A stretch of DNA of 64,000 nucleotides from assembly GCF_034377285.1 (NCBI RefSeq), contig NZ_CP139715.1, positions 2,774,001 to 2,838,000 on the forward strand. Reading direction: 5' to 3'. Positions within the stretch are counted from its first letter, which is position 1. Each line of letters begins with the position of its first letter. The notes beneath the pieces are model-generated. The model was not told the DNA's origin. It made no database searches and saw only the letters and a list, made by a program, of their open reading frames with translations. The stretch comes from Thalassobaculum sp. OXR-137 (lineage in GTDB: Bacteria; Pseudomonadota; Alphaproteobacteria; Thalassobaculales; Thalassobaculaceae). The position numbers and the translations under genes are program-made. Of this stretch, positions 29,731-52,691 are shown in pieces.

Positions 29731-29777
29731 GACCGGGCGGACGCCGCGGTCCCGAGAGCTCCGATCGCCCAATAACC

Positions 29778-29922: not shown

Positions 29923-29990
29923 AATGGGGCGAGGCGGCTACGCCGGTCTCGGCGCATGCTGTCGGCTCTCCTGCATTCCTGCATTTTCCC

Positions 29991-30113
29991 GACTTCCTGG
30001 ACGTCCTGCCCGGACTCCGTCCGGGTGGGGCGATCCAGGATCGTGGCACGTCGCTGCCAGTGCCACGATCCTGGATCTCATCCGACCTTGCGGCCGGAGG
30101 CGTCCAGGAAGGC
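29991..30113. repeat. Palindromic intergenic repeat, copy 2 (123 bp)
   Basis: Begins GACTTCCTGGAC and ends GTCCAGGAAGGC. It contains CCCGGACTCCGTCCGGG, GATCCAGGATCGTGGCACG, then CGTGCC-type pairing with GTGCCACGATCCTGGATC, so that the whole unit can fold as one long cruciform. It lies 110 bases before the dehydratase gene. Confidence 0.7.
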
Positions 30114-30224
30114 GCTGTGAGGGAAAAGATTGAAGGATCGCCGGGAGAGGCGTGTCCCTTCGATTTGCGCGCCTTCCCAATCCGCACCGCCCGCGACTAT
30201 GGTGCGCGCGGGAGGAACCAAATA

Positions 30225-31949: not shown

Positions 31950-31978
31950 CAAGAAACGATCCCGAGGGAGATATACGC

Positions 31979-32443
31979 ATGTCCGAGATCCAGACCGAAT
32001 TCGTGATGGAGCTGAAGCTCAGCGTCGACCTGCCGCTGGCGGCGATCGGCAATACCCAGTACGGCGACCGGCGCATCGCGCGGGTCAAGGGCGGCACCTT
32101 CGAGGGGCCGAACCTCAAGGGCACCGTGCGCGACGGCGGCGGCGACTGGATCCTCAACCGGACCGACGGGGTCACCCAGCTCGACGTGCGGCTGATCCTC
32201 GACACCGAGGACGGCACGCCGATCTACATGACCTACAAGGGCCTGCGCCACGGCCCCAAGGAGGTCATGGACCGGATCGCCGCCGGCCAGCCGGTGGATC
32301 CCTCGGAGCTGTATTTCCGCACCGCGCCGTTCTTCGAGACCGCCGCCGACGGCCCCTATGCCTGGATGAACAGGGCGGTGTTCGTGTCCACCGGCGACCG
32401 CAAGCCGGAAGGGCCGGTCTACCGGGTGTTCAAGGTTCTCTGA
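31979..32443 (+). CDS. DUF3237 family protein
   Basis: A 154-residue protein of the DUF3237 family, with ARVKGGTFEGPNLKGTV near residue 35, then WILNRTDGVTQLDVRLIL and RTAPFFETAADGPYAWMNR. These proteins adopt a beta-barrel and are common in sugar or aromatic catabolic operons, but no reaction is firmly assigned. It sits between the dehydratase and the amidase on the same strand. Confidence 0.82.
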   Translation: MSEIQTEFVMELKLSVDLPLAAIGNTQYGDRRIARVKGGTFEGPNLKGTVRDGGGDWILNRTDGVTQLDVRLILDTEDGTPIYMTYKGLRHGPKEVMDRIAAGQPVDPSELYFRTAPFFETAADGPYAWMNRAVFVSTGDRKPEGPVYRVFKVL

Positions 32444-32555
32444 CGGCGGGCCAGGGCGTGGCCCGGCACTCCGTACATTGATCTTCGGCTGACGGCTTGC
32501 CAAGCTGGCGGGGACCCACCTCTCGACCACTCCCCCGCCAGCATTGGAGACCGTC

Positions 32556-33959
32556 ATGACCGGCGCCACGCGCTATGACCCCCGTCAGTTCAAGGCCCTG
32601 ACCTGGTTCGACGCGACCGACGCCTTCGCCAAGGGCAGCGACACGCCGCGCGACTATCTGGAGCGCTGCCTGGAGACGGTCGACGCCCGCGAGCCGGTGG
32701 TGAAGGCCTTCGCCGCGCTGAACCGGGAGAGCGCGCGCGAGGCCGCCGACGCCAGCACCGCGCGCTGGAAGGACGGCAAGCCGCTGTCTCCCATCGACGG
32801 CATGCCGGTCGGCATCAAGGACCTGCTGGAAACCAAGGACATGCCCACGCAGCTCGGCTGCGAGGCGATGACCGGGAACTTTCCCAAGAACGACAACGCG
32901 GCCGTCTGGGCGCTGCGCCAGGCCGGCGCGGTGATTTTCGGCAAGACCGTGACGGCGGAGCTGGGCGGCAACCATCCGGGGCCGACCACCAACCCGTTCG
33001 ATCCGGCGCGTACGCCGGGCGGATCGTCCTCCGGCTCGGCGGCGGCGGTGGGCGCGGGCTTCATGCCGGCGGCCATCGGCTCCCAGGTCGGCGGCTCGAT
33101 CATCCGGCCGGCGGCGTTCTGCGGCAACTTCGCCCTGAAGCCGAGCCAGGGCGGCATCCATCGCGGCGAGCGCCAGGCCACCTCCATGAGCACCCACGGC
33201 CCCCATGCCGGCTCGATCGAGGACATGTGGCAGGTCGCCATCGAGGTGGCGAGCCGCTGCGGCGGCGATCCGGGCCGCGCCGGCCTCCAGGGGCCGAAGA
33301 CCACTCCGCAGGCGATCAGGCCGAGCCGGCTGATCCTGCTGGAGACCGACGGCTGGGCGCGCACCGATGCGGACAGCCACAAGGCGATGGCGGGCCTGCT
33401 GGACCGGCTGCAGGCGGCCGGGGTGGAGATCCTGCAGCGCGGCGATCATCCGCTGATCGAGAGCCTGGAGCAGTCCCTGGTGGGGGCCGGCGACCTCGCC
33501 AACACCATCACCGCCTGGGAGAACCGCTGGACCCTGCGCAACCTGATCGACAACAAGGGCGAGGGGGTGAGCGAGCGGATCAAGGCGCGCATCGGCGCGG
33601 TGGAGGCGTTGAGCCCGGACGACTACCGCCAGCTCCTGTGGCGCCGCGAGGGACTGCGCGCCGCCTGGCGGGCGCTCGGTCCGGTCGCCGACGCGTTCCT
33701 GACCTTCTCCTGCCCGGGTCCGGCGCCGCTGTGGCCGGGCGACATCCCGGGTCAGCCGCTCGCCAAGCAGCCGACCGGCGATGCGGTGTTCAACACGCCG
33801 AGCTCGCTCGCCGGCGCGCCGGCGGTGACCATGCCGATGCTGGCGGTGAACGGGTTGCCGGTGGGCGTCCAGGTGATGGGCCAGGAGGGCGACGACGCCC
33901 GCATGACTGGCCTGGCACGCTGGATCAGCGGCACCCTCGATCCGGTGATCGTGGGATAG
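32556..33959 (+). CDS. Amidase-signature family hydrolase
   Basis: A 467-residue amidase (AS family) that hydrolyses an amide. The Ser-Ser-Lys triad is recognisable: the lysine in PVGIKDLLE, the cis-serine within GGSSSGSAAAV and the nucleophile serine in QVGGSIIRPA. ATG 32556 is used because TTGGAGA precedes it; a TTG 12 bases earlier lies inside that site. The substrate is unknown. It ends 30 bases before the third palindromic repeat. Confidence 0.88.
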   Translation: MTGATRYDPRQFKALTWFDATDAFAKGSDTPRDYLERCLETVDAREPVVKAFAALNRESAREAADASTARWKDGKPLSPIDGMPVGIKDLLETKDMPTQLGCEAMTGNFPKNDNAAVWALRQAGAVIFGKTVTAELGGNHPGPTTNPFDPARTPGGSSSGSAAAVGAGFMPAAIGSQVGGSIIRPAAFCGNFALKPSQGGIHRGERQATSMSTHGPHAGSIEDMWQVAIEVASRCGGDPGRAGLQGPKTTPQAIRPSRLILLETDGWARTDADSHKAMAGLLDRLQAAGVEILQRGDHPLIESLEQSLVGAGDLANTITAWENRWTLRNLIDNKGEGVSERIKARIGAVEALSPDDYRQLLWRREGLRAAWRALGPVADAFLTFSCPGPAPLWPGDIPGQPLAKQPTGDAVFNTPSSLAGAPAVTMPMLAVNGLPVGVQVMGQEGDDARMTGLARWISGTLDPVIVG

Positions 33960-33988
33960 GGCGCTCCCCCAACCCCCACCCCAAACCC

Positions 33989-34090
33989 GACTTCCTGGAC
34001 GTCCCGGCCCTCTGCCGGGGCGATCCAGGATCCTGTGATGAACGCCCGGGCACGGTCCTGGATCGGCCCTGCGGGACCGTCCAGGAAGTC
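33989..34090. repeat. Palindromic intergenic repeat, copy 3 (102 bp)
   Basis: Begins GACTTCCTGGAC and ends GTCCAGGAAGTC, a perfect 12-base inverted pair. The middle has GATCCAGGATC and GGTCCTGGATC, as in the other copies, with a shorter spacer. It lies between the convergent amidase and SDR genes, where it may serve as a bidirectional transcription stop. Confidence 0.72.
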
Positions 34091-34109
34091 GTGTGGGTTA
34101 AAGCGAGCT

Positions 34110-34823
34110 TCAGAACCCCACCGTCTCGCCCTTCTGGTCCACCAGTTCCCCGCTGCGCGCAGGGGTGAGCCCGTCGACAACCGCCAGCAGTTCGGCCGCT
34201 GCGGTTTCCGGCGGGCGGACCTCCAGCCCGGCCTTGGCGAAGGGGGCCGACAGGCCGGTGTCGACCGTGCCGGGATGCAGGGCGACGCAGACCGCCTCCC
34301 GGTGCGTCCGCCCCAGTTCGATCGCCGCACAGCGCACGAGCTGGTTCAGCGCCGCCTTCGACGCGCGGTAGGCGTACCAGCCGCCGATCCGGTTGTCCGA
34401 GATCGAGCCGACCCGGGCCGACAGGGTGGCGAACACCGCCTTGCCCGCGCGCGGCAGCAGCGGCAGGAAATGCTTCATCAGCAGGGCCGGGCCGGTGGCG
34501 TTCAGGGCGAAGGCGCGGGCGAGGTGTTCGGGGTCGAGCTGGCGCCAGGATTTCTCCGGCTGGAACCGGTCGTCGTGCAGGAACCCGGTGGCGTCGACGA
34601 TCAGCCGGGGCGCGGCGTCGGCGTCCCGCAGGCGGTCGGCGGCGGCGGCGATCGACGCCTCGTCCAGCAGGTCGAGCGGTGGGTCGCCGCGCCGGGACAG
34701 GCCGATCGTGCGCTCGAAGCGGCCGCTGGCATCGATCGCGGACAGAAGGGCGGCGCCGATGCCGCCGGACGCGCCGACGACCACGGCCGTCCCCGAGGCG
34801 GGGAAGGAGGAAAGCTGTGTCAT
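34110..34823 (-). CDS. Short-chain dehydrogenase/reductase
   Basis: A 237-residue SDR with the nucleotide-binding VVVGASGGIGAALL at the N-terminus, an aspartate-rich strand (DLLDEASI), the catalytic serine in ATLSARVGS and YRASK. The short overall length and the segment LHPGTVDTGLSAPF resemble the C-factor/CsgA-like subgroup. The substrate is unknown. It converges with the amidase. Confidence 0.85.
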   Translation of the reverse strand: MTQLSSFPASGTAVVVGASGGIGAALLSAIDASGRFERTIGLSRRGDPPLDLLDEASIAAAADRLRDADAAPRLIVDATGFLHDDRFQPEKSWRQLDPEHLARAFALNATGPALLMKHFLPLLPRAGKAVFATLSARVGSISDNRIGGWYAYRASKAALNQLVRCAAIELGRTHREAVCVALHPGTVDTGLSAPFAKAGLEVRPPETAAAELLAVVDGLTPARSGELVDQKGETVGF

Positions 34824-34928
34824 GCGGCGACGGAGATGGGGGCCGCCCGCCCGCCGTCAAGCGCCGGACGACGGTTTCGCGTTGTGGCGCCGCCGGCCGT
34901 CTTGACCGGCTCCCCGATCGGAGACCCG

Positions 34929-36290
34929 CTATTCCCGGCGCATCCAGAGCCGGGTGACGACCCACAGAACGATGCCGATGCCGATGAGGACCGCGGCGAT
35001 GCCGTACTGGGCGGGGTCCCGGCCGGTCCACGGCCCCACGAGAAACGCGCAGGTCACCGCTCCGGCAATCGCGACCCAGGTCGGCGTGCGGAAATGGTCG
35101 TGCTCCACCTTGTCCTTGCGCAGGACCAGCACGGCGATGTTGACCACCGTGAACACGCCGAGCAGCAGCAGGGCCGTGGTGCCGCCGAGCTGCGGCACCG
35201 CGCCGACGAAGGTGATCAGGCCGGCCGCCAGCACGGTGGTGAACAGGATGGCGGTCACCGGGGTCCGGCGTTTGCGGTTCACCTTGCCGAGCACGCCGGG
35301 CAGCACGCCCTCCTCGCTCATCCCGTAGATCAGGCGGCTGGCCATCAGCAGGTTGATCAGGGCGGAGTTGCCGACCGCGATCATGGTGATCAGGCCGAAG
35401 ATCCACGGCGGAAAGCCGGGGGCGCCGGCCTCCACCACTTTCAGCAGCGGCGTGTCGCCCTCCGACAGCTGGTCCAGCGGGACGATGGAGACCGCGACCA
35501 CTGAGACCAGGACATAGAGGATCGCCGCGATGATCAGGCCGGCGAACAGCATCTTGGGGAAGTTCCGGCCCGGATCCTTGGTCTCCTCCGCCATGTTGAC
35601 CGAGTCCTCGAACCCGACCATGGCGAAGAAGGCCAGGGTGGTCCCGGCGATCACCGGCCAGAAGACGCCGTCCTCGCCGGTGTCGAAGTCGAACGCCTTG
35701 CCGATATCGACGTCCCCCGCCCCGAAGACCAGCATGCCAATGACCAGGATGATGATCAGCCCGGTCAGCTCGATACAGGTGAAGACGGCGTTGACCAGGA
35801 CGCTCTCGCCAACCCCGCGCATATTGATCAGCGCGATGGCGGCGACGAAGCCGAGGCCGATCAGGGTGATCATCCAGCCGCCGAGTTCGAGGCCGAACCC
35901 GTTGGAGAAGTTCTCGGCGAAGGCCCGCGCGGCGGTGGAGGAGGAGGTCAGGCCCGAGGACATGACCGCGAAGGCGACGAGGAAGGTCACGAAATGGATG
36001 CCGAACGCCTTCTCGGTGTACAGCGCCGCGCCCGCGGCCTTGGGGTATTTGGTAACCAGTTCGAGATAGCTGCAGGCGGTCAGCGCGGCGACGACGAAGG
36101 CCACGAGGAAGGGCAGCCAGACGATGCCGCCGACCTCCTCGGCCACCTTGCCGGTGAGGGCGTAGATGCCGGTTCCGAGAACGTCGCCGACAATGAAGAG
36201 CAGCAGCAGACCCGGTCCGATGGCGCGCTTCAACTTGGGCTTGTCGCGGTCAGCCCGCGGGGTGGAGTCCTGCTCAGTGACGTCAGACAT
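34929..36290 (-). CDS. APC-family amino acid permease
   Basis: A 453-residue transporter with about 12 membrane helices. The first helix carries GPGLLLLFIVGDVLGTGIYAL, the typical APC substrate site, and FFAMVGFEDSVNMAEETKDP is the conserved loop after helix 6. It should import an amino acid or amine. The start at 36290 is chosen because GGAG stands ten bases upstream and it removes four residues that lack support. Which substrate it carries cannot be read from sequence. Confidence 0.87.
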   Translation of the reverse strand: MSDVTEQDSTPRADRDKPKLKRAIGPGLLLLFIVGDVLGTGIYALTGKVAEEVGGIVWLPFLVAFVVAALTACSYLELVTKYPKAAGAALYTEKAFGIHFVTFLVAFAVMSSGLTSSSTAARAFAENFSNGFGLELGGWMITLIGLGFVAAIALINMRGVGESVLVNAVFTCIELTGLIIILVIGMLVFGAGDVDIGKAFDFDTGEDGVFWPVIAGTTLAFFAMVGFEDSVNMAEETKDPGRNFPKMLFAGLIIAAILYVLVSVVAVSIVPLDQLSEGDTPLLKVVEAGAPGFPPWIFGLITMIAVGNSALINLLMASRLIYGMSEEGVLPGVLGKVNRKRRTPVTAILFTTVLAAGLITFVGAVPQLGGTTALLLLGVFTVVNIAVLVLRKDKVEHDHFRTPTWVAIAGAVTCAFLVGPWTGRDPAQYGIAAVLIGIGIVLWVVTRLWMRRE

Positions 36291-36615
36291 TGGCAACTCC
36301 AAATCTCGGTTGCGATCCGGGCTGCGGCCGCATGGAAGCGCGGTCGACGGGAGACGCTGAAGAGTGCCGGGCTTGGCCCGTTACCGATGAACGCCGCGTC
36401 GGTCGATCAGTTCCCCTGATTTTTGAAGGGATAAGGGCGGGCGACGGCGCGTCGGCCGACTTCGGGACCTCGGCGGCGGACAGACGCGGTCTGTGGCGAA
36501 ACCGGCGATCGCGCGCGGCTCACCTTCATCCGCAGCCCTCCGGCATGGGCGACGGTCACCGGTCGCTTGCGCGACCTGGCTGCGGAGTGTCCGGTCCTTG
36601 ATCCGGCAAAGTCTC
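36291..36615. other. Intergenic region, no gene recognised
   Basis: About 325 bases upstream of the permease gene and downstream of the cytochrome gene. It must hold the permease promoter on the reverse strand, but no clear -35/-10 pair was found. Open frames here are shadows without coding character. Confidence 0.45.
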
Positions 36616-37848
36616 TCAGTGGGCGCCGCGGAGGTCCGCGACGGCCTCTTCGGTCACCGCGCTCGCGGAATTGCCGAAGGCGTTCCGCACGTAGGTAAGA
36701 GTGGCGGCCACCTCGGCGTCGCTGAGCTTCCAGTGGAAGGGCGGCATGGCGAACGGGGTCGGATAGCGATCGGTCGGCACCGCCTTGGCCCCGTCCAGGA
36801 CCGCCCGGATGAGGGTCGTCGGATTGCGCGAATGGACCAGGGACGATCCGGCCAGGGTCGCGAACATGCCTTTCACGCCTTCGCCCTTCGGCCCGTGACA
36901 GGCGGCGCATTGGGTGGCGTAGATCTCGGCACCGAGAGTCATGACCGTGTCCTCCGGACGCGCGGTCTCGTCGCGGTCGTTTTCCTCTTCGGCGTCCACC
37001 GGCAGGTCGCGCAGGTAGGCGACCACCGCGGAGATATCCGCATCGGTCATCCAGCGGGTCGACTTGTCGATCACTTCCGCCATCGGCCCGAACGCGGCCG
37101 TCCGGTCGTTGCGGCCGTGCTTCAGGAAGGCCTTCAACTCGGTCTCGGGCCAGTCGCCGATCCCGTCGCGCCCCTCGGCCCGCAGGGACGGGGCGAACCA
37201 GCCCTCGGCCATCCCGCCGGTATAGCGGGCGCTGCCCTGCTTCTCCGCCCCGATGAGATTGCGCGGGCTGTGGCAGGCCGAGCAGTGGCCCAGCCCTTCG
37301 ACCAGATAGCGCCCGCGGTTCCAGTCGGCCGATTTCTCGGGATCCGGCACGAAATCCTTCTCCTCGAAGTTCAGCAGGTTCCAGGCGCGCATGGAGGCCC
37401 GCATCCCGATCAGCGGCGGCAGCTCCGGCTTGCGGATCTCGTTGCGGACCGGGTCGAGGCTCTGGAGATAGGCGAAGATCGCGTCGGAATCCTCCCGCGT
37501 GACATAGGTGAAATGGGTGTAGGGGAAGGCCGGATAGAGGCGCTCGCCGTCCTCGCCCACGCCCTCGTCCAGGGCGCGGAAGAAGGTGTCGGCGTTCCAG
37601 TCGCCGATGCCGGTGTCCGGGTCGGGGGTCAGGTTGGCCGAATAGATCGTGCCGAACGGGGTCGGCAGGGCGCGGTTGCCCGCATAGGACGGCTGTCCTG
37701 CGACCGTGTGGCAGGCCTCGCAGTCGCCGACGCGGGTGAGATAGAGGCCGCGCTTCACGGTCGACCAGGTGTTGGCGTCCTGGGCGGCGACCGGTCCCGC
37801 GGCCAGCAGGCCGATCAGCGCGATGACAAGAGTGCCTGTCCGGGTCAT
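36616..37848 (-). CDS. Triheme cytochrome c subunit of a membrane dehydrogenase
   Basis: A 410-residue exported cytochrome. A signal peptide (VIALIGLLAAGPVAAQ) is followed by three heme c sites: CEACH at 43-47, CSACH at 189-193 and CAACH at 314-318. This is the layout of the cytochrome subunit of gluconate 2-dehydrogenase and alcohol dehydrogenase, which passes electrons from the flavin subunit to ubiquinone. It is the last gene of the operon, and its start overlaps the GMC stop by four bases. Confidence 0.9.
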   Translation of the reverse strand: MTRTGTLVIALIGLLAAGPVAAQDANTWSTVKRGLYLTRVGDCEACHTVAGQPSYAGNRALPTPFGTIYSANLTPDPDTGIGDWNADTFFRALDEGVGEDGERLYPAFPYTHFTYVTREDSDAIFAYLQSLDPVRNEIRKPELPPLIGMRASMRAWNLLNFEEKDFVPDPEKSADWNRGRYLVEGLGHCSACHSPRNLIGAEKQGSARYTGGMAEGWFAPSLRAEGRDGIGDWPETELKAFLKHGRNDRTAAFGPMAEVIDKSTRWMTDADISAVVAYLRDLPVDAEEENDRDETARPEDTVMTLGAEIYATQCAACHGPKGEGVKGMFATLAGSSLVHSRNPTTLIRAVLDGAKAVPTDRYPTPFAMPPFHWKLSDAEVAATLTYVRNAFGNSASAVTEEAVADLRGAH

Positions 37849-39605
37849 GCCTGCACCAAGGGGCCGGGATTGCGCAGATACTGCTCGCGGATCGCCTTGG
37901 CCGAATGATAGGCGAGCGCGGCGACGGTGCCGGTCGGGTTGTAGCCCGGGTTCTGCGGGAAGGCGCCGGCCCCCATCAGGAACAGGTTCGGCAGGTCCCA
38001 GCTCTGCAGATAGCGGTTGATCACGCTGCCCTGCGGGGTGGCGCCCATCATGGTGCCGCCGGTGTTGTGGGTGGTCTGGTAGGGCGCGATGTCGTACGGG
38101 ACCTTGGCCTGGCTCACCTTGATCTCGCGTCCGCCCATTGCCCGGGCGATCTCGGTGGCGCGCTCGGTGATGTAGCGCGACATGGCGATATCGTTGGGCT
38201 TGCAGTCGAAGGTCATCCGCATCAGCGGGCGGCCGTAGACGTCCTTGTAGGTCGGGTCGAGGTCGAGATAGTTCGAGCGGTAGCTCATGACGGCACCATG
38301 GGTGCCGACCTTGATCGTGTGGTTGTAGCTGTCGCGGACCGCCTGCTTCCAGCCGAGCCCGAACTTCGGCGTGCCGTCCGGCACCGGGTGGCTCTCGATC
38401 GGCCGGCCGTTGGTCTGCCATTGGGCGATGTAGCCGCCGCCGATGAAGCCCAGGCCGCTGTGGTCGAAATTGTCGCCGTTGAACTCGTCGATGACCTGTC
38501 CCAGCGCGCCGGCGCCGATGAACGGGTTCACCGCCAGGTCGTCGTAGAAGACGCTGACGCCCGAGACGATCTGATAGGCGTAGTTCTTGCCGACCACGCC
38601 CTGTCCGGTTGCCGGGTCGTAGGGCTGCCCGATGCCGGAATGCAGCATCAGGTGGACGTTGTGAGTGATGTAGGCGGCCAGAATCACCATGTCGGCGGGC
38701 TGGTGGAAGACCTGGCCTTCCTCGTTGACGTACTCCACGCCGGTGGCCTGTTTGCCGTCATGCAGCACCCGCAGCACCATCGCCCCGGTGCGCAGGCTGA
38801 AATTGTCGCGCCGTGCCAGGGCCGGCAGGATCGTGGTCGAGGCGGTCGCCTTCGAGTAGTTGCCGCAGGCGAACTTCTCGCAGAAGCCGCAATAGGTGCA
38901 GGGTGCGAGCTGCACGCCGAGCGGGTTGGTATAGGCTTGGCTCATATTGGCCGACGGCCCCGGGAACGGTGCGTAGCCGAGCTCGCGCGCGGCATCGGCG
39001 AAAACCATTGGCGCCTTCACCATCTGCATCGGCGGCGTCGGATACTCGCTGGATCGCGGCCCTTCGAACGGGTTGCCGCCCTCCTGGATCCGGCCGTTCA
39101 GGTTGCCGGCCTTGCCGGCGATGCCGCAGATCTTCTCGAACGTGTCGTAATGCGGCTCGAGCTCGTCATAGGTGACGCCCCAGTCCTGGATCGTCATATC
39201 CTCGGGGATCGCATCCCCGCCGTACCGCTCCTCGTTGTGGCTGCGCGCCTGGAAGTCCGACGGCAGGAAGCGCCAGGTCTGGCCGTTCCAGTGCACGCCT
39301 GAGCCGCCGACGCCCGTCCCGGGCAGGAACGAGCCCAGCATGCGCATCGGCAGCGCGGTCTGGTCTTGCGTGTTGCGGAAGGTCAGGGTCTCTCGCGAGA
39401 GGCTCTCGAACAGCTCGTCGCGGTAGCGGTACCGGACCTCGTCCTGGGCGTTGGTGACCGCGTAGTCGGTCGAGGTGTTGCGCCAGAGCCCGCGCTCCAG
39501 GGCCAGGACGTCCAGACCCTCCAGGGTGAGCTGTTCGGCCATGATCGCGCCGGTCCAGCCGAACCCGACGATGACGACGTCCTTGCGGGGGAGTTTGGTG
39601 GTCAT
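37845..39605 (-). CDS. GMC oxidoreductase, flavin subunit of a membrane dehydrogenase
   Basis: A 586-residue flavoprotein with the FAD-binding VVIVGFGWTGAIMAEQL at the N-terminus and the C-terminal histidine region with TTHNTGGTMMG. It groups with gluconate 2-dehydrogenase-type GMC subunits, helped by its neighbours: a gamma-type subunit upstream and a triheme cytochrome downstream. It oxidises a polyol or sugar acid in the periplasm. The cysteines in CTYCGFCEKFACG could form an iron-sulfur or structural site. The substrate is uncertain. Confidence 0.88.
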   Translation of the reverse strand: MTTKLPRKDVVIVGFGWTGAIMAEQLTLEGLDVLALERGLWRNTSTDYAVTNAQDEVRYRYRDELFESLSRETLTFRNTQDQTALPMRMLGSFLPGTGVGGSGVHWNGQTWRFLPSDFQARSHNEERYGGDAIPEDMTIQDWGVTYDELEPHYDTFEKICGIAGKAGNLNGRIQEGGNPFEGPRSSEYPTPPMQMVKAPMVFADAARELGYAPFPGPSANMSQAYTNPLGVQLAPCTYCGFCEKFACGNYSKATASTTILPALARRDNFSLRTGAMVLRVLHDGKQATGVEYVNEEGQVFHQPADMVILAAYITHNVHLMLHSGIGQPYDPATGQGVVGKNYAYQIVSGVSVFYDDLAVNPFIGAGALGQVIDEFNGDNFDHSGLGFIGGGYIAQWQTNGRPIESHPVPDGTPKFGLGWKQAVRDSYNHTIKVGTHGAVMSYRSNYLDLDPTYKDVYGRPLMRMTFDCKPNDIAMSRYITERATEIARAMGGREIKVSQAKVPYDIAPYQTTHNTGGTMMGATPQGSVINRYLQSWDLPNLFLMGAGAFPQNPGYNPTGTVAALAYHSAKAIREQYLRNPGPLVQA

Positions 39606-40303
39606 GGGGTTGTCCTTCTGGCGACGGACACGGGATCCAGGATCACGGGCTTGCCGCCGTGATCGATCCAGGGGCGGTAGTCGTAGCGGGCACCGGGGAA
39701 GCCGATCATCCGCCAGCCCTGCATGTCCCGGTTGCCGCCATAGACCGGGTCGCCGAAGAATCCTTCCAGGGTGTTCTGCCAGAGCGTGTCGAAGAACGTC
39801 TTGGCGTGGACATGCTCCAGCTCGATCTCCCCCTCCGACAGGCGGGTCAGCACGTCGTCCTGGGCGTCGTCGTCGAGATCGGCGAAGGGACCGTTGTTCG
39901 CGGCGGCGAGGAACGCCTCGATATCCGCGATCGCCTGGCGGTACAGCAGGGCCGGAGCCTCGGCCTGATATCCCTGGGTGGCGAGACCGGCCTGGAAGGG
40001 CGGTTGCAGATAGTAGATATCGCCGCGGCCATAGGCGCCGGCGAGCTGGGCATCGATGTAGTCCACCACGCCGAGTTCGGAGGCCGACGGTGTGTCGTCG
40101 GCGGGGATGAGGCGATCGACGGCGGCGGTGACGAACGTCCGTTCCTCGTCCGTGAGGAACCGCCTGGACGCGTCGAAGTCATTTGGCGGCTGGGCCTTGC
40201 CCGATGTCCAAGGGATCCCTCCCCGGAACTCACGCGCCTGGGCCCCTGCGGCAAGGGCCAGGGCGGAGACCCCGACAAGAAACGATCGGCGCAACATGTG
40301 CAT
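39602..40303 (-). CDS. Gluconate 2-dehydrogenase subunit 3 family protein
   Basis: A 233-residue gamma-type subunit with a twin-arginine-like signal (MLRRSFLVGVSALALAAGAQA). This is usual because the subunit carries the folded flavin subunit through the Tat system. The domain has FLTDEERTFVTAAVDRLIPAD and ends in PGARYDYRPWIDHGG, typical of the family. The next gene overlaps its stop by four bases. An ATG two codons later (MLRRS) is an equal start. Confidence 0.88.
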   Translation of the reverse strand: MHMLRRSFLVGVSALALAAGAQAREFRGGIPWTSGKAQPPNDFDASRRFLTDEERTFVTAAVDRLIPADDTPSASELGVVDYIDAQLAGAYGRGDIYYLQPPFQAGLATQGYQAEAPALLYRQAIADIEAFLAAANNGPFADLDDDAQDDVLTRLSEGEIELEHVHAKTFFDTLWQNTLEGFFGDPVYGGNRDMQGWRMIGFPGARYDYRPWIDHGGKPVILDPVSVARRTTP

Positions 40304-40634
40304 GAGCCTGTCTCCCGGTCTTCGTTCCTGGGAAACGGCGGGGGCGGAGGTCGGTTCCAGCGGAATCGGAAACTCGCGATCCTTCGATGCAACCGAAAGC
40401 GGATCCTCACGTTGCCCTCGAGAGGGATCGCCGACCGAGCGGCGGGATCCGCTTTCTGAAGGGGATTCCGCTCCTGGCGCCAGGCTTGCCCATCACCGCC
40501 TTGTTTGAGGGGAATTCAAGCGCACAATCAATCTAAGCGAGAATTAATAAATCATAAAATCAGAGATTGATGATATAGTTGCGTGCCACTTGGGCGGGGA
40601 ACGACTAGTCGACTAATAGTACCGGAGACGCCAA
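40304..40634. other. Intergenic transition with AT-rich segment
   Basis: About 330 bases between the dehydrogenase operon (reverse) and the small gene at 40635. From about 40500 the sequence becomes AT-rich. CGACTAGTCG at 40602-40611 is a perfect palindrome, and CGACTAGT/CGACTAAT form an 8-base direct repeat, placed as an operator would be before 40635. No other gene was seen. Confidence 0.45.
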
Positions 40635-40826
40635 ATGGATGGTCACCGAGAGGAAAAGCGACTCAATCGTCAGCAAATCATGCTGTCAGACAGTGAAATT
40701 GAGATACTGAAGGACTGGCAATTCGGAAACCGGATTCCGACGATGGCGGCCGCAATACGCGAAGCATTGCGGATCGGTCTTGAAAAGGAATTGACTTCGG
40801 ATATTGGGCCACATTTTCGAGAGTAG
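40635..40826 (+). CDS. Small ribbon-helix-helix-like protein
   Basis: A 63-residue protein with ATG preceded by CCGGAGACGCC. The core LSDSEIEILKDWQFG followed by AAAIREALRIGLEKEL has the strand-helix-helix character of Arc/CopG-type DNA-binding proteins and antitoxins. It is lower in GC than the host genes. The palindromic sequence just upstream may be its own operator. No partner toxin was identified. Confidence 0.55.
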   Translation: MDGHREEKRLNRQQIMLSDSEIEILKDWQFGNRIPTMAAAIREALRIGLEKELTSDIGPHFRE

Positions 40827-41131
40827 GAAAATCAGAATTTAGTCATGGTCCTGTATGTGTCGCTATTTGGAGGGGGACGCTTCCAATCTTCGGAAGATTA
40901 GGATCGCCCGACATAGATATACGAAGCATCGAACCCTCTCGGTCCTGAAGCGGACTGAGGCGCTTGCCGATATCGGCATTCTTTCTCAGTCGAATACCGA
41001 TCGGAACCGGCACCCGTCGCGCGCAGAGGTTTGCCGGAGCCTGCCGGCATTCCATGCGAACGGAGGCGCCGGCTGCGAAGGCCATTGAGCGCTTGTGGCT
41101 AGATCCCGAAACTCGACCTCCCGGCCCAGGA
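40827..41131. other. Intergenic region with a 15-base palindrome
   Basis: About 305 bases. AATCTTC-G-GAAGATT at 40885-40899 is a perfect dyad. Two overlapping open frames of about 78 residues on opposite strands have no family likeness or good ribosome site, so neither is called. Confidence 0.4.
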
Positions 41132-41314
41132 TCAGGACCTGTTCTCCGGCTTCAGCTTCGGATCGGTCTCGGAAAGGCCCTTGAGTTGGGCCTCGCTCAG
41201 GGTGTCGTACAGTTCGCGGGCCGCGTCGTTGAGCTGGTCCTTCGCGATCTCGCCCCGCTTTGCGGCGAGGGCCATCGCCGCGGCCTGCTCCTGGTCCTGT
41301 GAATTTCCCGTCAT
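41132..41314 (-). CDS. DUF3008-like small protein
   Basis: A 60-residue protein, starting at 41314 with GGAGAA upstream. Its layout, AAAMALAAKRGEIAKDQLND followed by LYDTLSEAQLKGLSE and a lysine-rich end, matches the DUF3008 family of small proteins. Function unknown. It appears to be the last host gene before the integrated element. Confidence 0.65.
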   Translation of the reverse strand: MTGNSQDQEQAAAMALAAKRGEIAKDQLNDAARELYDTLSEAQLKGLSETDPKLKPENRS

Positions 41315-41514
41315 CGTCGGTTCTCCGGTAAAGAGGGGCATCAAGCCCTACTATGACGGAAACAGCCTGCCGGGCCGGAGGTTCCCGCCCGTCCGCCGAA
41401 TGCCGGGAGCAAGGCCCTGCGTCTGCGCCGCGCGCCCATCGTCGATCGGCGAGGGAAAAGTGCTGGCCGACGACGGCTTTCGTCATCCAATAAGTTATTG
41501 AATTAATTATAATT

Positions 41515-41535
41515 TGGTGGCCCCGGAGGGAGTCG
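41515..41535 (-). other. Putative attachment site: tRNA 3'-end copy
   Basis: Read on the reverse strand, these 21 bases are CGACT, CCCTC, CGGGGCC, A, CCA. They are exactly the end of a T-loop, the 3' side of a 5-bp T-stem, a 7-base acceptor strand, a discriminator base and CCA. The sequence further upstream does not continue as a tRNA. That is what an integrase leaves at one end when it inserts in a tRNA gene. Host genes lie to the left and phage genes to the right, so the whole tRNA should lie beyond the right end of the window. Confidence 0.7.
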
Positions 41536-41590
41536 TTACCAGAATCCAATATCGTAAATAATTCAATTGGTTATTTAAGATATTAGAGGT

Positions 41591-41613
41591 CGGACTAGGC
41601 AGAGACTAGGCAG
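41591..41613. repeat. Tandem GACTAGGCAG motifs near the attachment site
   Basis: GACTAGGCAG occurs at 41593-41602 and again at 41604-41613. An inverted copy of CGGACTAGGC is at 41691-41700. They lie 55-185 bases inside the element from the putative attachment core, where integrase arm-binding or excisionase sites usually are. Confidence 0.45.
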
Positions 41614-41690
41614 TTTTCTATCCGGATCGTCGTCTACCAGGTCGTCTCGAAATCGAACAGCGGTGCCGACGTCGGCGCGATGACATTGAC

Positions 41691-41700
41691 GCCTAGTCCG
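41691..41700. repeat. Inverted copy of the CGGACTAGGC motif
   Basis: GCCTAGTCCG, the exact reverse complement of 41591-41600, at the end of the first reverse-strand gene of the element. Confidence 0.4.
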
Positions 41701-42340
41701 CGAGCACGACGACCGGCTTTCGCCCGCCCTTGACGACGGGGTTGCGCCAGGGGTGGGCGTATCGTTTTCCAGACGGGATCTTGCGCGACGTCCGGATCTC
41801 CCGTCCCGACGCTTCCCACTCAGTGATTCCCGCGAGTAGATGGTCCGGCCTGTAGCCGTCGAACTTCGTCTTCGTATCGTTCAGCTGGAATGTAGGAGCC
41901 GGGAGACCAAGCTCTGCCGCGCGAAGAATCGCAGCTTCGATCAAGTCGACGAGCCGGATAACTCGGGTCTTCGGGAGGCCCGCGATACGCGCCACCCATT
42001 GTATCCCGTCGGTCATCGCTGTCTCAACATGATCGCCCATCCGGATCGTCAAGACCTGAACGACGTTCCGCCCACCTTCTGGGATGGCAAAGCCTTCGAC
42101 CCCTCCGGGCGTTCTACTGAACCGCATCGTCGCTGGGAGGAAGGACGGCGGCACGTTCAACCGGATCAGTTCGCCGCCGGGGAGACGCATTTCGTTTCGT
42201 CCAACAATCCGGACGGCACCGTTGTCGCAACGCTCTGCGCGGATTGCCCACTCGACACCTGCGCTCGCAGATCGGCGAGTATTGCCCTGTCCATAGACCT
42301 CGCGAATGACAGTCTCAGCGGTTCTGGGGTCGAGCTTCAT
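41693..42340 (-). CDS. Unknown protein at the left end of the prophage
   Basis: A 215-residue protein from ATG 42340 (MKLDPRTAETVIREVYG). The frame is open for another 62 residues upstream, but these look non-coding. A central part has AVRIVGRNEMRLPGGELIRL and VQVLTIRMGDHVETAMTDG, suggesting strands; the C-terminal part is basic (KGGRKPVVVLAD). It does not look like an integrase although it lies next to the attachment site. No good ribosome site is visible, so the start is uncertain. Confidence 0.5.
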   Translation of the reverse strand: MKLDPRTAETVIREVYGQGNTRRSASAGVEWAIRAERCDNGAVRIVGRNEMRLPGGELIRLNVPPSFLPATMRFSRTPGGVEGFAIPEGGRNVVQVLTIRMGDHVETAMTDGIQWVARIAGLPKTRVIRLVDLIEAAILRAAELGLPAPTFQLNDTKTKFDGYRPDHLLAGITEWEASGREIRTSRKIPSGKRYAHPWRNPVVKGGRKPVVVLAD

Positions 42341-42910
42341 AGGCGGGATTGTAGCCAATCCGACCCCACTGAAAGGAACGGGCGTGGAGGGGCCAATCCG
42401 AAAGGGCAGAAAATTGAAATCTTCACTAAAGAATAGCTGGCGGTCGTTTGTTCGATGACTACGTGCAGCTCCGCAACGTCTAGATGACGCCGCGACCACC
42501 CCATAGGCGGACGCCAAATTCTGCACTCACGGATATTACTACCCAGGGAACGAAGGAGGGTAGACGAGGTAAAGCGACGAGTTCCGGGTCCGACCCCCGC
42601 GTCTCGTTCGATTACCTCCTTTCGGAGCCGGTGAGGCTCCCCGAGAGGCCGGTCTCATCCCGGCGGGCTCGGATAGCCGGAACTGGTATACGGCATCGCG
42701 GAGTAGGTCGGTCACCCGAAACCACACTGCAAAAAGAGAGAACCCCGACGGCGCTAACCGTCGAGGCTCTTCATCTCGGGTCTCTCAGCGCGAGCAAGCG
42801 ATAGAGCAACCGTCCTAGCGAGACGAGTTCTACCAAATCTCGCCCTGAGACGCCAAACTGAACATGGTGTCGAACGAGCCGTGACGCGGCGCAAGGCGAA
42901 AGAATAGACG
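42341..42910. other. Intergenic region upstream of the primase-helicase gene
   Basis: About 570 bases. Open frames here have no family likeness. It contains the stem-loop at 42731-42766 and several short GC-rich hairpins, and could include the replication origin of the element, but no repeated iterons were seen. Confidence 0.4.
42731..42766 (-). terminator. Stem-loop with U-rich tail on the reverse strand
   Basis: CCCCGACGG and CCGTCGAGG pair with one mismatch around CGCTAA. On the reverse strand the stem is followed by TTCTCTCTTTTT, a good intrinsic terminator tail. It would stop reverse transcription entering the left module. Confidence 0.5.
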
Positions 42911-45900
42911 GTGGAACAGGGTAATCCCAACGCAGTAACGATCCTGAAGACTTACGACGGGAAGCTCGTCGGTAAGCACGTCTCGCGCGGGCCGGACGGT
43001 CAGCTGAAGAAGCTGATCTACTCCGGCTCGAAGTCGTTCAATTGGACGTCCAGAGAGGTTCAAGTCGACGGCATTTATGGCCTCAAGGATGTTCTAGAGT
43101 CCCTTCGCAATAGCCCGACCGAGTGCGTCATAAGGGGCGCAGCGGGTACCGACTTCGACACCAATCAGCCCCACTACCGGCGGGGAGCCAATAAGAAGAA
43201 TGGTGTCTACCAAGACGTTGGGCGTTGCTGGATGGGCATTGATATTGACGGCTTCTCATACGACACGGCCGAGTTCGACCCATACCGCGAGCCGGAGGAG
43301 TTCTTCGAGCACATGTGCCGGCAGATTTCGCCGGACCTCGAAGACGTCACCGTCGTCTACCAGTTCTCGACCGGTGCCGGGATCGCGCAGGAGGGAAAGA
43401 AGCATAATATCGTTAAGGTCCACCTCTGGTTCTGGCTCAACCGCGCCTATACCTGCGCCGAGATCAAGCGCTGGGCACAAGCGGTAAATGCTCGGACAAA
43501 GTCGTTCGCCGATAAGGAGGATAAGAAGGCCAAGGTCATCGACACGAACCCGCTTCAGCCCGTCGGCATCCTCTATACCGCCGACCCTCGCCTCGAAGGC
43601 GTCTCTACGTCGGTCGTCCGCCGCGTGGGGATCGTCGATCTCGGGAAGGAAGAGGCAACCCTTCAAATCCCGTCGGAAATACAGCACAACGCGAGCAAGG
43701 TTTCTGGGAGTACGGTCGTCGACGGAAAGCGCATCCACGGTTTCCGAAACTACGTCTATCGCCTTCGCAACCTCGACGGCGGAGATGGCGCGCATGAACT
43801 CTACCGCAGCGCAGCGGCATCATACCTCCTACACGTAGAACCGGACGCGGACTATACCCAGGCAAAGGCGGAGATCATCGATGCCATCCGATGCTGGGCG
43901 AACTCCGACCGGAAGACGGAACTCCTACAGAGAGCCGGTCCGGGAGGCGATATCGACCGCGCGTTCGAGACCGGACGCGACTTCGCACGGAAAAAGTGGG
44001 CGGAAGGCTTTACTCCAATCGGTGACCGAAACGCGACTATCGAGACCGATACGTCGGTCCCTCGCTATCCCGCCCCGAAGTTACTCGACCGAGAGGAGGC
44101 CCGCCGCGCGTTCGGCGCCTACATCGACGACTGGTTCGATCACGCCGTCCGGATCGCGTTCGTCAACAACCGCCCCGAGGACCGCGAAGACATCACGCTT
44201 GAAGGCGTGGGCGTCCCGGCGGATTACAACCCGCGCAAGGTCGCGAAGGCACTCGTCGGCTTCGGCAAGACCAAAACCGTCAACGGCAACCTTGCGGAGC
44301 GAGCCCAGGCGATCCTCGATAGCTTGAACGAACAGTTCGGGACGTCGGTCAGCATCACGATTGCCTACGCGCACCTCTTGAAGAAAAAGGCGTCTGAGGC
44401 AAGGGAAGACATCGCAGACGAGAGCGAAAACGTGAGCGTCGACACCGTTTTTGGTCCGGTTTCCGAGGGCTTCTGCCAAAAGCCGAAGGCTATCGAGGCT
44501 GCTCAGAAGGCGGGTATCAGCCCGTCGACCGTTTGCGGCACTTGCCCAGCCCGCTTTGTCTGCAAGTACCGCTTCCAGATCGCCGACATTCAGAAGTCGA
44601 GCGAGGAAGAGGGCAGGGCTCAGATCCGGGTCATCCCGCACCAATATCTCGCGCTCAATTCCGCCGCCGGGAGCTTCGACGTGGTCATCGTCGACGAGAC
44701 CTACTCCCCGGTCGAAGAGTTCGCGATCCCCGCGTCTGACATCGTCTTTTACACCTTCGACTTCTCCGACTTCGTCCAGCCGGAGGAGGAGGAGGACGCG
44801 GTCGAGATCGAACTCATCAACGAAATCCTGAACGCACTCTCGAAGGTGTTCACCGAGCGACCGAACGAGATCCTCTCGGGCATCCGAGAGATTTACCTCA
44901 ACAGTCGGATGCGCAAGATCGAACCGCGCGACTTCCGCCGCGCCGCATTCGCCGTCAAAGCCGTCATCCGGCAGCGGACACCGGACAACCTTGGGAAGGT
45001 CGCACCGTCGTCGATCACCCGCCAGGTCAAAGCCGCGAAACTCGACACGCTCTCGCACGTCGAGAAGATCCTCATCGCGTTTGCCGACGAGTTCGAGGCC
45101 AAGCGGTCGCAGTCGAACTTCGTCCGGATCATCGACGAGGACAATGGCGTTCAGAGCATCGAGTACCGGCGAGGACTCGCCCCGGAGCGGGTCGCGAAGT
45201 CCGCCCCCGTCCTTCTCCTCGACGCAACCGCACGACCGGAGGTCATCAAGCGGACATTCGCCCGCCTCGGGTCGTTCGACTTCGAGGAGTTCAGGGCGCC
45301 GGATCTGACGACATACATCCAGCTTACCCTCGACCAGGGCTGGTCCGCCCGATCTCTCTCGGAAGAAGGCAGCAAGGGCAAGGTCGAGGCCGTAGTCTCT
45401 TTCATCAAACGGCTATCTAAGCCGTTCGTCGCCGCACCGGAGAAGGTCGAGGTTGAACTCAGTAAGCACCTACCCACCGACTTCCAGCTCGCCCACTTCC
45501 GCGCGCTCCGTGGCCTCAACACCTTCGAGAACTGCGAGACCGCCGTTATCGTCACGAACCCGGACGTCCCGCCGGAAGCGGTCGTTCGCGACCTCCGAGC
45601 CTGGGCGACCACCGACGACGGAGAAGTCGCCCCTCAAAGATACCAGGCCGCCGACTACCGCATCCGGACCGTCGAGGGGCACGAAGAAGGGCCGGAGCTT
45701 ATCCAAACCTGCAACGTCTTCCCTGACCCGGTCCTTGAAGAGTTCCGGCAGGCCAAGGTCGAAGACGAGGTCGTACAGGCCATCGGGCGCGTTCGCGGCT
45801 ATCACAACGAGCGGACCGTCTTCCTCCTGTCGAACAACGTCTACGACCTTACTATCGACCACGTCGGCGATTTCTCCAAGGCAGCCAGGTGCCTAGAGTC

Positions 45901-46828
45901 GAACGAACTCGCGCTATCTCTCCTGAGAAGCGGAGAGAACGTCATCCCCTTGACCAGGACAGCCGTCGAGAAACGCCTTGGCGTGACCCGGCGCGCGGCG
46001 TTCTTCTCCCTAGTCGTCGGCTCTGTCGAGCGGTTCGCTGACAAGGAGGGCTTTCAACTCGTCCAGAAGATCAACCCGAAGAACGGACGGGTCATCCGGC
46101 TCGCCATCAAGGGAGACCCTACCCAGGACGATTACGTCGCGGCTTACGGTGCAGAGCTAACTGACCCCGCGAACGACAACGACGAGCATCCGCTCCTGAC
46201 TTTCGCGAAAGACGCCATCGACCGGGAGGCCCCGTTCGTCATCCTCTCGAAACCCTGGATCAAGGCGAACGATCCGAACGGAATCGCTAAGTCACGCAGA
46301 CACCTTGATAAAATCTCAAAGGCAGATTCTTCAATTTTTTACCAGCTCTGTCCCATTCTCTCTAGGTATATTAAGAGAGATCCGGACATTGCCGTGCAAT
46401 TTTTGAAGACGTGGGCCTTTGAAGAGATGGGCTCGCAAGGACGCTACAAAAAAGGCGCCCCCTTGATCTCCTTCGTGAGCGAGTTTCGGCTCCGGGCCGA
46501 TCTCGACGCGATCTACGGGGTGGGAAGCTATTGCCTGACCGAGACCGCGATCCTTGAGTCCTCCGAAGAGCGGCGTAGCGAGATCGCCCGTCGCCTCGTC
46601 GCCGGGCAGGATTTCTCCGGCGCCACCCACGACGAGAGCGCGGCACTTGCCAAGGGCTACTTCGGCAACTCCCCAATCCTCGTCGACATGGAAGCTGCCG
46701 AGCGTTTCGAGGCGCAGCAGGGGGAAGAAAACGCCATCGATGAGTATGAGGCCGACGTCCGTCAAGACCGCGCCCTTCAGGCCAAACTCGACAAGCTCTT
46801 CGACCTCACCCCAGCGTTCCGGAACTAG
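42911..46828 (+). CDS. Primase-helicase fusion with four-cysteine cluster
   Basis: A 1305-residue protein beginning with GTG. The first 250 residues resemble an archaeo-eukaryotic-type primase: D111 and D113 in MGIDIDGF, then a histidine strand in VKVHLWFWLN. A superfamily 2 helicase follows: Walker A GFGKTKT at 450-456, VIVDET (592-597), a motif III-like LLLDATARPEV near 770 and motif VI QAIGRVR at 956-962. Between motifs I and II lie C522, C542, C545 and C551, the pattern of the iron-sulfur cluster in XPD/DinG helicases. It is probably the replication protein of the element. The last 300 residues are not recognised. Confidence 0.65.
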   Translation: MEQGNPNAVTILKTYDGKLVGKHVSRGPDGQLKKLIYSGSKSFNWTSREVQVDGIYGLKDVLESLRNSPTECVIRGAAGTDFDTNQPHYRRGANKKNGVYQDVGRCWMGIDIDGFSYDTAEFDPYREPEEFFEHMCRQISPDLEDVTVVYQFSTGAGIAQEGKKHNIVKVHLWFWLNRAYTCAEIKRWAQAVNARTKSFADKEDKKAKVIDTNPLQPVGILYTADPRLEGVSTSVVRRVGIVDLGKEEATLQIPSEIQHNASKVSGSTVVDGKRIHGFRNYVYRLRNLDGGDGAHELYRSAAASYLLHVEPDADYTQAKAEIIDAIRCWANSDRKTELLQRAGPGGDIDRAFETGRDFARKKWAEGFTPIGDRNATIETDTSVPRYPAPKLLDREEARRAFGAYIDDWFDHAVRIAFVNNRPEDREDITLEGVGVPADYNPRKVAKALVGFGKTKTVNGNLAERAQAILDSLNEQFGTSVSITIAYAHLLKKKASEAREDIADESENVSVDTVFGPVSEGFCQKPKAIEAAQKAGISPSTVCGTCPARFVCKYRFQIADIQKSSEEEGRAQIRVIPHQYLALNSAAGSFDVVIVDETYSPVEEFAIPASDIVFYTFDFSDFVQPEEEEDAVEIELINEILNALSKVFTERPNEILSGIREIYLNSRMRKIEPRDFRRAAFAVKAVIRQRTPDNLGKVAPSSITRQVKAAKLDTLSHVEKILIAFADEFEAKRSQSNFVRIIDEDNGVQSIEYRRGLAPERVAKSAPVLLLDATARPEVIKRTFARLGSFDFEEFRAPDLTTYIQLTLDQGWSARSLSEEGSKGKVEAVVSFIKRLSKPFVAAPEKVEVELSKHLPTDFQLAHFRALRGLNTFENCETAVIVTNPDVPPEAVVRDLRAWATTDDGEVAPQRYQAADYRIRTVEGHEEGPELIQTCNVFPDPVLEEFRQAKVEDEVVQAIGRVRGYHNERTVFLLSNNVYDLTIDHVGDFSKAARCLESNELALSLLRSGENVIPLTRTAVEKRLGVTRRAAFFSLVVGSVERFADKEGFQLVQKINPKNGRVIRLAIKGDPTQDDYVAAYGAELTDPANDNDEHPLLTFAKDAIDREAPFVILSKPWIKANDPNGIAKSRRHLDKISKADSSIFYQLCPILSRYIKRDPDIAVQFLKTWAFEEMGSQGRYKKGAPLISFVSEFRLRADLDAIYGVGSYCLTETAILESSEERRSEIARRLVAGQDFSGATHDESAALAKGYFGNSPILVDMEAAERFEAQQGEENAIDEYEADVRQDRALQAKLDKLFDLTPAFRN

Positions 46829-50954: not shown

Positions 50955-52691
50955 ATGGGGCGTTACGGAGCCAAGCGGAAGCAACTCGACGTGCTGAAGC
51001 GTAGGGTCGAGGAGATCGTCTCGACCGAGCCGACGGTCTTCGAAGTGCCGTTCTCGACCCTTTGGGATGTTTCGTCCCCAAGCCTGCGCGGCAAGCTCGC
51101 GCTGCAAGGTCGTCCGGACGCGCCGCACCGTTCCGTCGCCCTGATCCCTGAGAAGGTCGCGAACGATAACGACTGGTCAGCCCTTGCTGTTCCATACGAG
51201 CGCGATCTCGCAGCCAGCCTCGAAGAGCGGCTCTCTGTCCGGAAGCCCATCGCCGAAGACTTCGACCCCTTCAACTACAACCCGGTCCTGTGGTCGCCGT
51301 TCTCGGGATCTCAGATGCTGTTCCTGGCATCGCCCGTCCGGGAGGTGCTCTTCCACGGATCGCGAGGGACCGGGAAGTCTGACACCCTATTGATGGACTT
51401 CGCGCAAGACGTAGGGCGAGGCTGGGGCGCGCACCTGAAGGGATTGATCGTCCGGCGGACGTTCCCCGAGTTGAAGGACCTGATCGACAAGTCGTCGAAG
51501 CTCTTCCCCGTCCTCTATCCCGGCGCCCGGTACAACGCGTCCGATCATGTCTGGCGCTTCCCTGGCGGCGAACAGTTGGTCTTCGGCTACCTCGACCGCC
51601 CCACCGATTACCTTCGCTATCACGGCCACGAGGTGACGTTCCTCGGGTTCGACGAGCTTACGTCCTGGGTGGACTCGAAGGCGTATCTTGAGCTTCAGAC
51701 GACGGTCAGGTCGCCGGTCTCCGGCATCCCGTTGAAGATCCGGGCGACGACGAACCCGAGCGGACCGGGCCACAACTGGGTGATGCGCCGGTTCATCGAC
51801 AAGGTCGAGCCGGGCGAGGTCTTTGCCGATCCTGAGACCGGGCTGACCCGGTCGCACGTTTTCTCCAACGTCATCGAGAACGTGTTCATCGCGAACAGCT
51901 ACCTACCGACCCTCCGGGCGATTGAGGAGCCGAACCGGCGCCGGGCTTGGCTCTATGGCGACTGGAACGTGACGGCTGGCGGAGCCCTAGACGATCTCTG
52001 GAAGCGCGAGGCGCACGTCCTGACTCCGTTTGATGTCCCGGCGACGTGGCGGGTCTCGCGGTCTTATGACCACGGCGAGTCCTCGCCCGGTGCCTGTCTC
52101 TGGATCGCCGAGAGCAACGGCGACGACGCGACGATGGCCGATGGGACAAAGCGGAGCTTCCCCGCCGGTACGCTCTTCGTGATCGTCGAGTATTTCACGG
52201 CGAAGCAAGGGACGTTTGACCAGGGGCTGCGGCTACCGGCGAAAGAGGTCGCGACAAACATCAAAGAGTATGAGCGCGTCAACCCGCGCCTATTTAGACA
52301 CCGGGTCGCGCCCGGCCCGGCGGATAACAGCATCTTCGACGCGGGGTCCGGGAACTCCGACTCAATCGCGAAGCAGATGGCAAAAATCGGTGTCCATTGG
52401 GATCGGTCGGACAAGTCGCCCGGCTCGCGCCGGAATGGCCTCTCTCTGGTCCGCCAGAGGCTCAAGGAGAGCCTGCGCGGATACGAGGGTGGGTACATGG
52501 ATGGGCCGGGGTTGTTCGTCTTCTCGACCTGCGAGGCGGTGCTGGCTACGGTTCCAAGCCTGCCGCGCAACCCGAAGGATCTCGACGACGTCGATACGAC
52601 GGCGAACGATCACGCATACGACGCTCTGCGCTACCGGGTCCTCGCCGGAGCGCGAGGGAAGGGCGGGTCGAAGAAAATCAAGATGGGCTAA
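50955..52691 (+). CDS. terL: Large terminase subunit
   Basis: A 578-residue packaging motor. Walker A is HGSRGTGKS (K141), Walker B is TFLGFDELTSW (D233, E234), and the C-terminal nuclease begins with D372 in VSRSYDHGESS; later DTTANDHAYDALRY supplies further metal ligands. It starts four bases after the TerS stop. It cuts phage DNA and pumps it into proheads. Confidence 0.9.
   Translation: MGRYGAKRKQLDVLKRRVEEIVSTEPTVFEVPFSTLWDVSSPSLRGKLALQGRPDAPHRSVALIPEKVANDNDWSALAVPYERDLAASLEERLSVRKPIAEDFDPFNYNPVLWSPFSGSQMLFLASPVREVLFHGSRGTGKSDTLLMDFAQDVGRGWGAHLKGLIVRRTFPELKDLIDKSSKLFPVLYPGARYNASDHVWRFPGGEQLVFGYLDRPTDYLRYHGHEVTFLGFDELTSWVDSKAYLELQTTVRSPVSGIPLKIRATTNPSGPGHNWVMRRFIDKVEPGEVFADPETGLTRSHVFSNVIENVFIANSYLPTLRAIEEPNRRRAWLYGDWNVTAGGALDDLWKREAHVLTPFDVPATWRVSRSYDHGESSPGACLWIAESNGDDATMADGTKRSFPAGTLFVIVEYFTAKQGTFDQGLRLPAKEVATNIKEYERVNPRLFRHRVAPGPADNSIFDAGSGNSDSIAKQMAKIGVHWDRSDKSPGSRRNGLSLVRQRLKESLRGYEGGYMDGPGLFVFSTCEAVLATVPSLPRNPKDLDDVDTTANDHAYDALRYRVLAGARGKGGSKKIKMG

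Follow-up and report, generated by a model that had tools for sequence, protein, structure and literature searches.

A copy of a tRNA-Leu(UAA) 3' end as left attachment scar of a probably defective prophage, and a candidate attachment layout for integrases with a DUF6538 domain

For the KplE1 prophage of E. coli (argW-intS), and for other prophages in which a tRNA gene and then the integrase gene lie on the same strand, self-repression of the integrase has been argued (PMC2951348, in the parts of that article available to us). The arm-binding domains of tyrosine recombinases, for their part, are described as N-terminal, built of three strands and a helix, and falling into six subgroups (PMC8138268, likewise in the parts available). 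Here, we analyze a window of 64 kb (C1:2774001-2838000 of the host genome G000, which counts 5,646,840 bases, or 5.65 Mb, in three contigs), whose numbering is carried on past 64000 as "extended" coordinates. Overall, our observations make it almost certain that a prophage integrated at the 3' end of a tRNA-Leu(UAA) gene, its integrase recombining attP with attB, and that the 21 bases at 41515-41535 are its left attachment scar. The element is an ordinary tRNA-targeted prophage, of a kind already known, the interest of which is slightly raised by an attachment layout that appears to be family-wide.

On the plus strand, positions 41515-41535 read TGGTGGCCCCGGAGGGAGTCG, the reverse complement of which is composed of a T-loop end, the 3' side of a T-stem (CCCTC), an acceptor side (CGGGGCC), A, and CCA. 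The first-pass annotation, made from the raw sequence, had recognized here a tRNA 3' end on the reverse strand without the rest of the tRNA, which fits both this reverse complement and the fact that ARAGORN found no tRNA in the whole 64-kb window. With up to three mismatches allowed, the 21-mer matches the window at a single place, which is itself (0.00 matches expected), and with up to two it occurs at two places in the whole genome, 41515-41535 and, with one mismatch, G000:C1:2842868-2842888 (extended 68868-68888), when its backwards control occurs at none. This partner is the 3' end of a minus-strand tRNA-Leu(UAA) gene (extended 68868-68952), which begins with GGCCCCG, ends with CGGGGCCACCA, and is the sole match of an Rfam search. 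An intact reverse-strand tRNA with acceptor GGCCCCG had been predicted to the right, the whole proposal being staked on the existence of a tRNA with such a 3' end on that side, and this gene stands 4.9 kb past the window. It had also been expected to end in the same 21 bases, but 20 of the 21 agree, and the identical core amounts to 17 consecutive bases (TGGTGGCCCCGGAGGGA, 41515-41531), after which the left copy has G (41532) where the tRNA has C, then TCG follows and similarity ends. Among all the 17-mers of the tRNA gene, the outermost one alone recurs in the window, and the ends of the element are now fixed to within this 17-bp core. An exact scan of viral contigs with the 21-mer returned 0 matches; an exact 25-mer was matched in an Acidobacteriaceae contig, which we take to be a tRNA end. 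By eye, AT-rich stretches at 41490-41514 and 41546-41585, which flank the left core, have inverted AATAATTCAAT-like words in common, possibly sites for bending or for an accessory protein.

The segment bounded by this direct repeat of the tRNA 3' end, with the tRNA itself intact, measures 27.35 kb, from 41515 to extended 68867 (G000:C1:2842867), of which 22.5 kb lie inside the window (41515-64000). Its G+C content is 60.2%, against 68.4% to the left (28000-40480) and 67.7% to the right of the tRNA. The compositional step that had been noticed at the copy is therefore real, but it is misplaced by about 1 kb, since G+C is already low (55.8%) in the 1 kb just left of it (40480-41514). From a comparative perspective, DNA similarity to two genomes of the same genus, G002 and G003, spans the right flank together with the tRNA gene and is lost 3-4 bp past its 3' end. 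In a third one, G004, homologs of window 30271-34787 (by position, an amidase and a dehydrogenase) are found 1.6 kb from tRNA-Leu, separated from it by a short stretch that has two other ORFs and lacks the element; G003 has a match to window 32345-32444 at 4.4 kb from tRNA-Leu. The left and right flanks are thus neighbors elsewhere in the genus, which identifies the 27 kb as an insertion at the level of the neighborhood rather than base for base: no exact empty site exists among G002-G004, owing to the low-G+C kilobase left of the scar, from which the tRNA-adjacent DNA of these genomes differs. The tRNA stretches of relatives are informative at the level of single bases as well, because 17 of 18 carry C (ACTCG or ACTTG) where the left copy has G (AGTCG), the exception being L087 with G. 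On this basis, the G at 41532 most likely came with the attP of the phage, which would place strand exchange within the 17 identical bases.

The surroundings of this tRNA also deserve mention in their own right. Four genomes of a single genus each have different DNA beside the 3' end of tRNA-Leu (L080, L092, L093), namely the prophage here, a TerC-like gene (by eye) in G002, two other ORFs in G003, and a transporter-like gene (by eye) in G004, which gives the site the appearance of a hot spot of change. The kilobase at 40480-41514 holds an ORF of 63 aa (40635-40826), ribbon-helix-helix-like as far as its fold can be guessed by eye and part of whose DNA has weak relatives elsewhere in the host genome and in G002, as well as a DUF3008 gene (41132-41344); it may be what is left of an older element at this tRNA.

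Phage structural and packaging genes lie between the copy and the tRNA. On the plus strand follow one another a protein of 1305 aa with an N-terminal match to the phage DNA primase family phrog_16950 (42911-46828; E 3.9e-14), the terminase large subunit (50955-52691; PF03237; phrog_2, E 1.8e-33), a possible head scaffolding protein (53650-54624; coiled-coil-like, weak) and, from family matches, a portal protein of the DUF4055 type (55277-56791), a head morphogenesis protein of the MuF / SPP1 gp7 type (56799-57938), and the tail tape measure protein (59001-61238). The right-hand module starts with a minus-strand DUF3489 protein (extended 63658-64440, of which 63658-64000 in the window). Beyond it come a second tyrosine-recombinase-like ORF of 338 aa on the minus strand (extended 64593-65609; L004:2593-3609), where HxxR and Y motifs are kept and the beginning looks ribbon-helix-helix-like by eye, and, between the two recombinases, a plus-strand AAA ATPase of 420 aa (extended 65847-67109; L004:3847-5109; phrog_6841, of unknown function). 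The match of this ATPase to the defence library is marginal, and it is possibly an accessory or defence gene; a search for defence families gave nothing convincing.

In such phages, capsid and tail genes are expected between MuF and the tape measure, and here just 1.06 kb separates the two. The 29 element ORFs that were scanned singly, along with one host ORF, yielded no family for capsid, tail fibre or lysis, and neither did 65 of the remaining 93 ORFs with at least 70 codons; the sole match with a lysis label, which involves a portion of the tape measure protein, is weak. A full set of virion and lysis genes was thus not recovered and, with capsid, fibre and lysis genes unrecognized, we read the element as a defective prophage, though with probability rather than certainty, as diverged genes can escape HMM searches. 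Where the copy had been read as the left end of a prophage, the phage genes support the reading, but "probably defective prophage" is the better term, and an infectious phage is unlikely given that the structural gene set looks incomplete.

One may then wonder whether the segment is a single element at all, rather than several islands accreted at the same tRNA, with 41515 merely the boundary between two of them. The low G+C of 40480-41514, together with its ribbon-helix-helix-like and DUF3008 genes, the variable DNA beside tRNA-Leu in G000, G002, G003, and G004, and the second recombinase-like ORF would all suit such a history. We nevertheless regard it as unlikely, given that no further tRNA-end copy exists in the window at up to three mismatches and that the 27.35-kb segment is exactly what the matching pairs of repeats described below enclose; even with an older remnant on its left, 41515 would still be the left end of the present element.

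At the other end of the prophage, an integrase is encoded on the minus strand (extended 67298-68770), with matches to PF00589 (E 1.1e-9), in which the R, HxxR, and Y motifs of the tyrosine recombinase catalytic domain can be picked by eye, and to PF20172 (E 2.6e-9). It starts 97 bp inside the tRNA-Leu(UAA) 3' end and thus adjoins one attachment site, at the place where the integrase missing from the window had been anticipated. Its relatives in phages amount to three records with 28-29% identity, and none was confirmed in viral contigs. The first-pass annotation, a prediction from raw sequence alone that is hereby confirmed, was right in its essentials: the biology is ordinary, the prediction good.

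The repeats alluded to above form one pair near each end. The far pair, GGACTAGGC / AGACTAGGC, lies on the plus strand at 41592-41611 with a period of 11 bp and starts 57 bp inside the att copy; its partner, on the side of the integrase, lies at extended 68782-68801, 66 bp inside the tRNA. Their common 8-mer, GACTAGGC, has three occurrences in the 64-kb window, none of them outside 41592-41699, and two more at extended 68782-68801. Alone it is not rare (five occurrences in 76 kb against 2.9 expected from base composition), and it is its paired clustering at both ends, not the 8-mer itself, that counts. Indeed, with up to two mismatches allowed, the whole genome holds GACTAGGC-nnn-GACTAGGC at two places, both exact, one per end and in the same orientation, when the backwards control occurs 14 times at that threshold and never exactly, and 0 of 3834 control zones inside the element match as well as the near and far zones do. 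Repeats are thus present on both sides of the core, as in recombinases with arm-binding domains, and the GACTAGGC pairs are placed as expected of integrase arm sites, to which we putatively assign them. A third, inverted GGACTAGGC on the minus strand (41691-41699), overlapping the stop of a minus-strand ORF (41693-42526), is possibly an extra arm site. Among 36 genomes of the order, the pair was found in the host genome only, so that what can be shared there is the layout and not the sequence. Five viral contigs with the pair were dropped as support: tblastn found no relative of the integrase in the DNA available for them, and their count is within that estimated for chance.

Taken together, these features point to an entry of the phage by attP x attB recombination under its integrase, with the tRNA-Leu(UAA) 3' end as target. 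As the phage supplied the last 17 tRNA bases anew, the tRNA beside int, at the right end, remained whole, and the tRNA end displaced from the chromosome was left behind as the scar on the left. The catalytic part of the integrase would exchange strands in the 17-bp core, and the N-terminal PF20172 domain would grip two direct-repeat arm sites per side, with a period of 11 bp and about 57-66 bp from the core. In this regard, the position of the pair on the integrase side is suggestive: a promoter-like TGGACG-17-TATGAT (mean of 0.0 in shuffles) stands on the tRNA side just upstream of the pair, itself immediately upstream of the int start codon, so that an integrase bound there would repress its own gene. 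Excision may still be possible, and the junction of the excised circle would then run from the int-side GTGAGGAA through the 17-bp core to GTCGTTACC.

PF20172 (DUF6538) is listed in Pfam as being of unknown function. Its 27 aligned members showed no other Pfam family above noise with HMMER, a comparison with PDB found no related solved structure by sequence, and a full-text literature search for DUF6538, most subscription journals being outside its coverage, returned no paper. Across 193 genomes of the class, 41 have the domain, 36 of them over the cut-off, against 0 of 14 control genomes. In 19 of 30 listed loci, the present one included, a tRNA on the same strand ends shortly before the PF20172 domain, many different tRNAs being concerned, and none of the 30 was reported with a tRNA on the opposite strand. 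Integrases with an N-terminal PF20172/DUF6538 domain thus mostly sit just inside a tRNA 3' end. At one locus (L161; G078:C114), the far tRNA-end copy is just 2.7 kb from such an integrase, and the element is then very small or decayed.

Of 16 comparison elements, drawn from these loci and from hits obtained before, one (G095, 1.3 kb) was dropped before analysis. A far copy of the tRNA end, 17-29 bp long, is present in 10 of the 15 others; the five without a far copy of at least 15 bp are G130, G277, and G228, whose contigs end 3.5-6 kb on, G113 (14.7 kb), and G202, with 12 bp only. We then compared the zone near int with the zone before the far copy, against equal-size zones inside the element, which overlap and make all p-values approximate. 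In the first set of ten, five elements gave values of at most 0.0168, G231 0.023, G240 0.035, and G242 a marginal 0.073, and G078 and G025 had no signal in the set zone; combined, and with the present element excluded, they yield 1.9e-10 (Fisher). Because this zone had been chosen after seeing the data, a slightly wider one was written down in advance, and 20 new stretches were then fetched as a hold-out. Four of them had no same-strand tRNA, leaving 16, and 10 had no far copy, so that six were tested, with p-values of 0.0005, 0.0027, 0.0097, 0.075, 0.0007, and 0.895, that is, four of six below 0.01 (Fisher, 1.2e-7 combined). Paired repeats that match from one end to the other are thus seen again in other elements. 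Within the hold-out, L175 is marginal, and for L181 the set zone yields no signal, though similar words are visible in it by eye. In an unbiased scan of whole elements, the far pair came out on top in 4 of 11 (G000, G072, G030, and G044), tied for first in G018 and G231, stood among the best four and one point below in G078 and G245, and fell outside the best four in G242, G240, and G025. Finally, with repeats near int tested without regard to the far ends, 14 of 38 loci, including that of the present element, came out with 5 of 500 shuffles or fewer.

These comparisons also bear on the idea that the GACTAGGC pairs are operators for another regulator, or leftover repeats, rather than integrase arm sites. 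A repressor could well bind the int-side pair, lying as it does on a promoter-like region, and the same string turned up in the five viral contigs in whose available DNA tblastn found no integrase relative; yet the presence of a pair at both ends, at similar distances from the core, and the conservation of this layout in relatives with different repeat sequences make us think this improbable. As for a chance resemblance, or an inactive tRNA fragment unrelated to integration, which the one mismatch inside the 21 bases might evoke, its likelihood is negligible, as it is already refuted by the single genome-wide partner on the predicted strand beside an integrase, by the neighborhoods without the element in relatives, and by the recurrence, in 10 of 15 comparison elements, of a far copy of the tRNA end 17-29 bp long.

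Reading the pairs as arm sites, DUF6538 may reasonably be inferred, from sequence and in a form open to test, to be an arm-binding domain. Beyond this, we lean toward the view that PF20172 serves arm binding in a wide class of integrases, as yet without a name, that are specialized for tRNA 3' ends and follow a fixed attP plan: a core made of about the last 17 bases of the tRNA, a tandem pair of 8-9-bp repeats (period 11-13 bp) some 60-80 bp to either side, and an int-side pair over the transcription start of int, which would make a single device of integration geometry and self-repression. Since the repeat sequence varies between elements, the domain and the arm sequence would then co-vary. 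The new part is modest, namely an att layout for the DUF6538 family, which is unnamed in the papers searched. Such a layout provides an uncharacterized domain with a testable function and gives a rule for both ends of an element (from a tRNA end over paired repeats to the integrase, and on to a second occurrence of that pair and of the tRNA end), when locating both ends is usually the hard part of annotating such elements.

With regard to known systems, the portal protein is homologous to that of Dinoroseobacter phage vB_DshS-R5C, which has the same DUF4055 type, over 98% of its length with an identity of only 28%, and most structural genes of the present element are unrecognizable. With recombinases that carry arm-binding domains, our integrase has in common an N-terminal domain before the catalytic one and paired, here putative, arm sites flanking the core, the difference being that this domain is here PF20172, which the available parts of PMC8138268 do not name. 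As compared with KplE1 (argW-intS), on what the available parts of PMC2951348 describe, the tRNA and the arm sequence (here GACTAGGC) are different and autoregulation is for our element a matter of inference, but the adjacency of tRNA and int on the same strand and an int promoter, here a putative one, within the att region are shared, an analogy by which the present arrangement fits the class of self-repressing prophages argued for KplE1.
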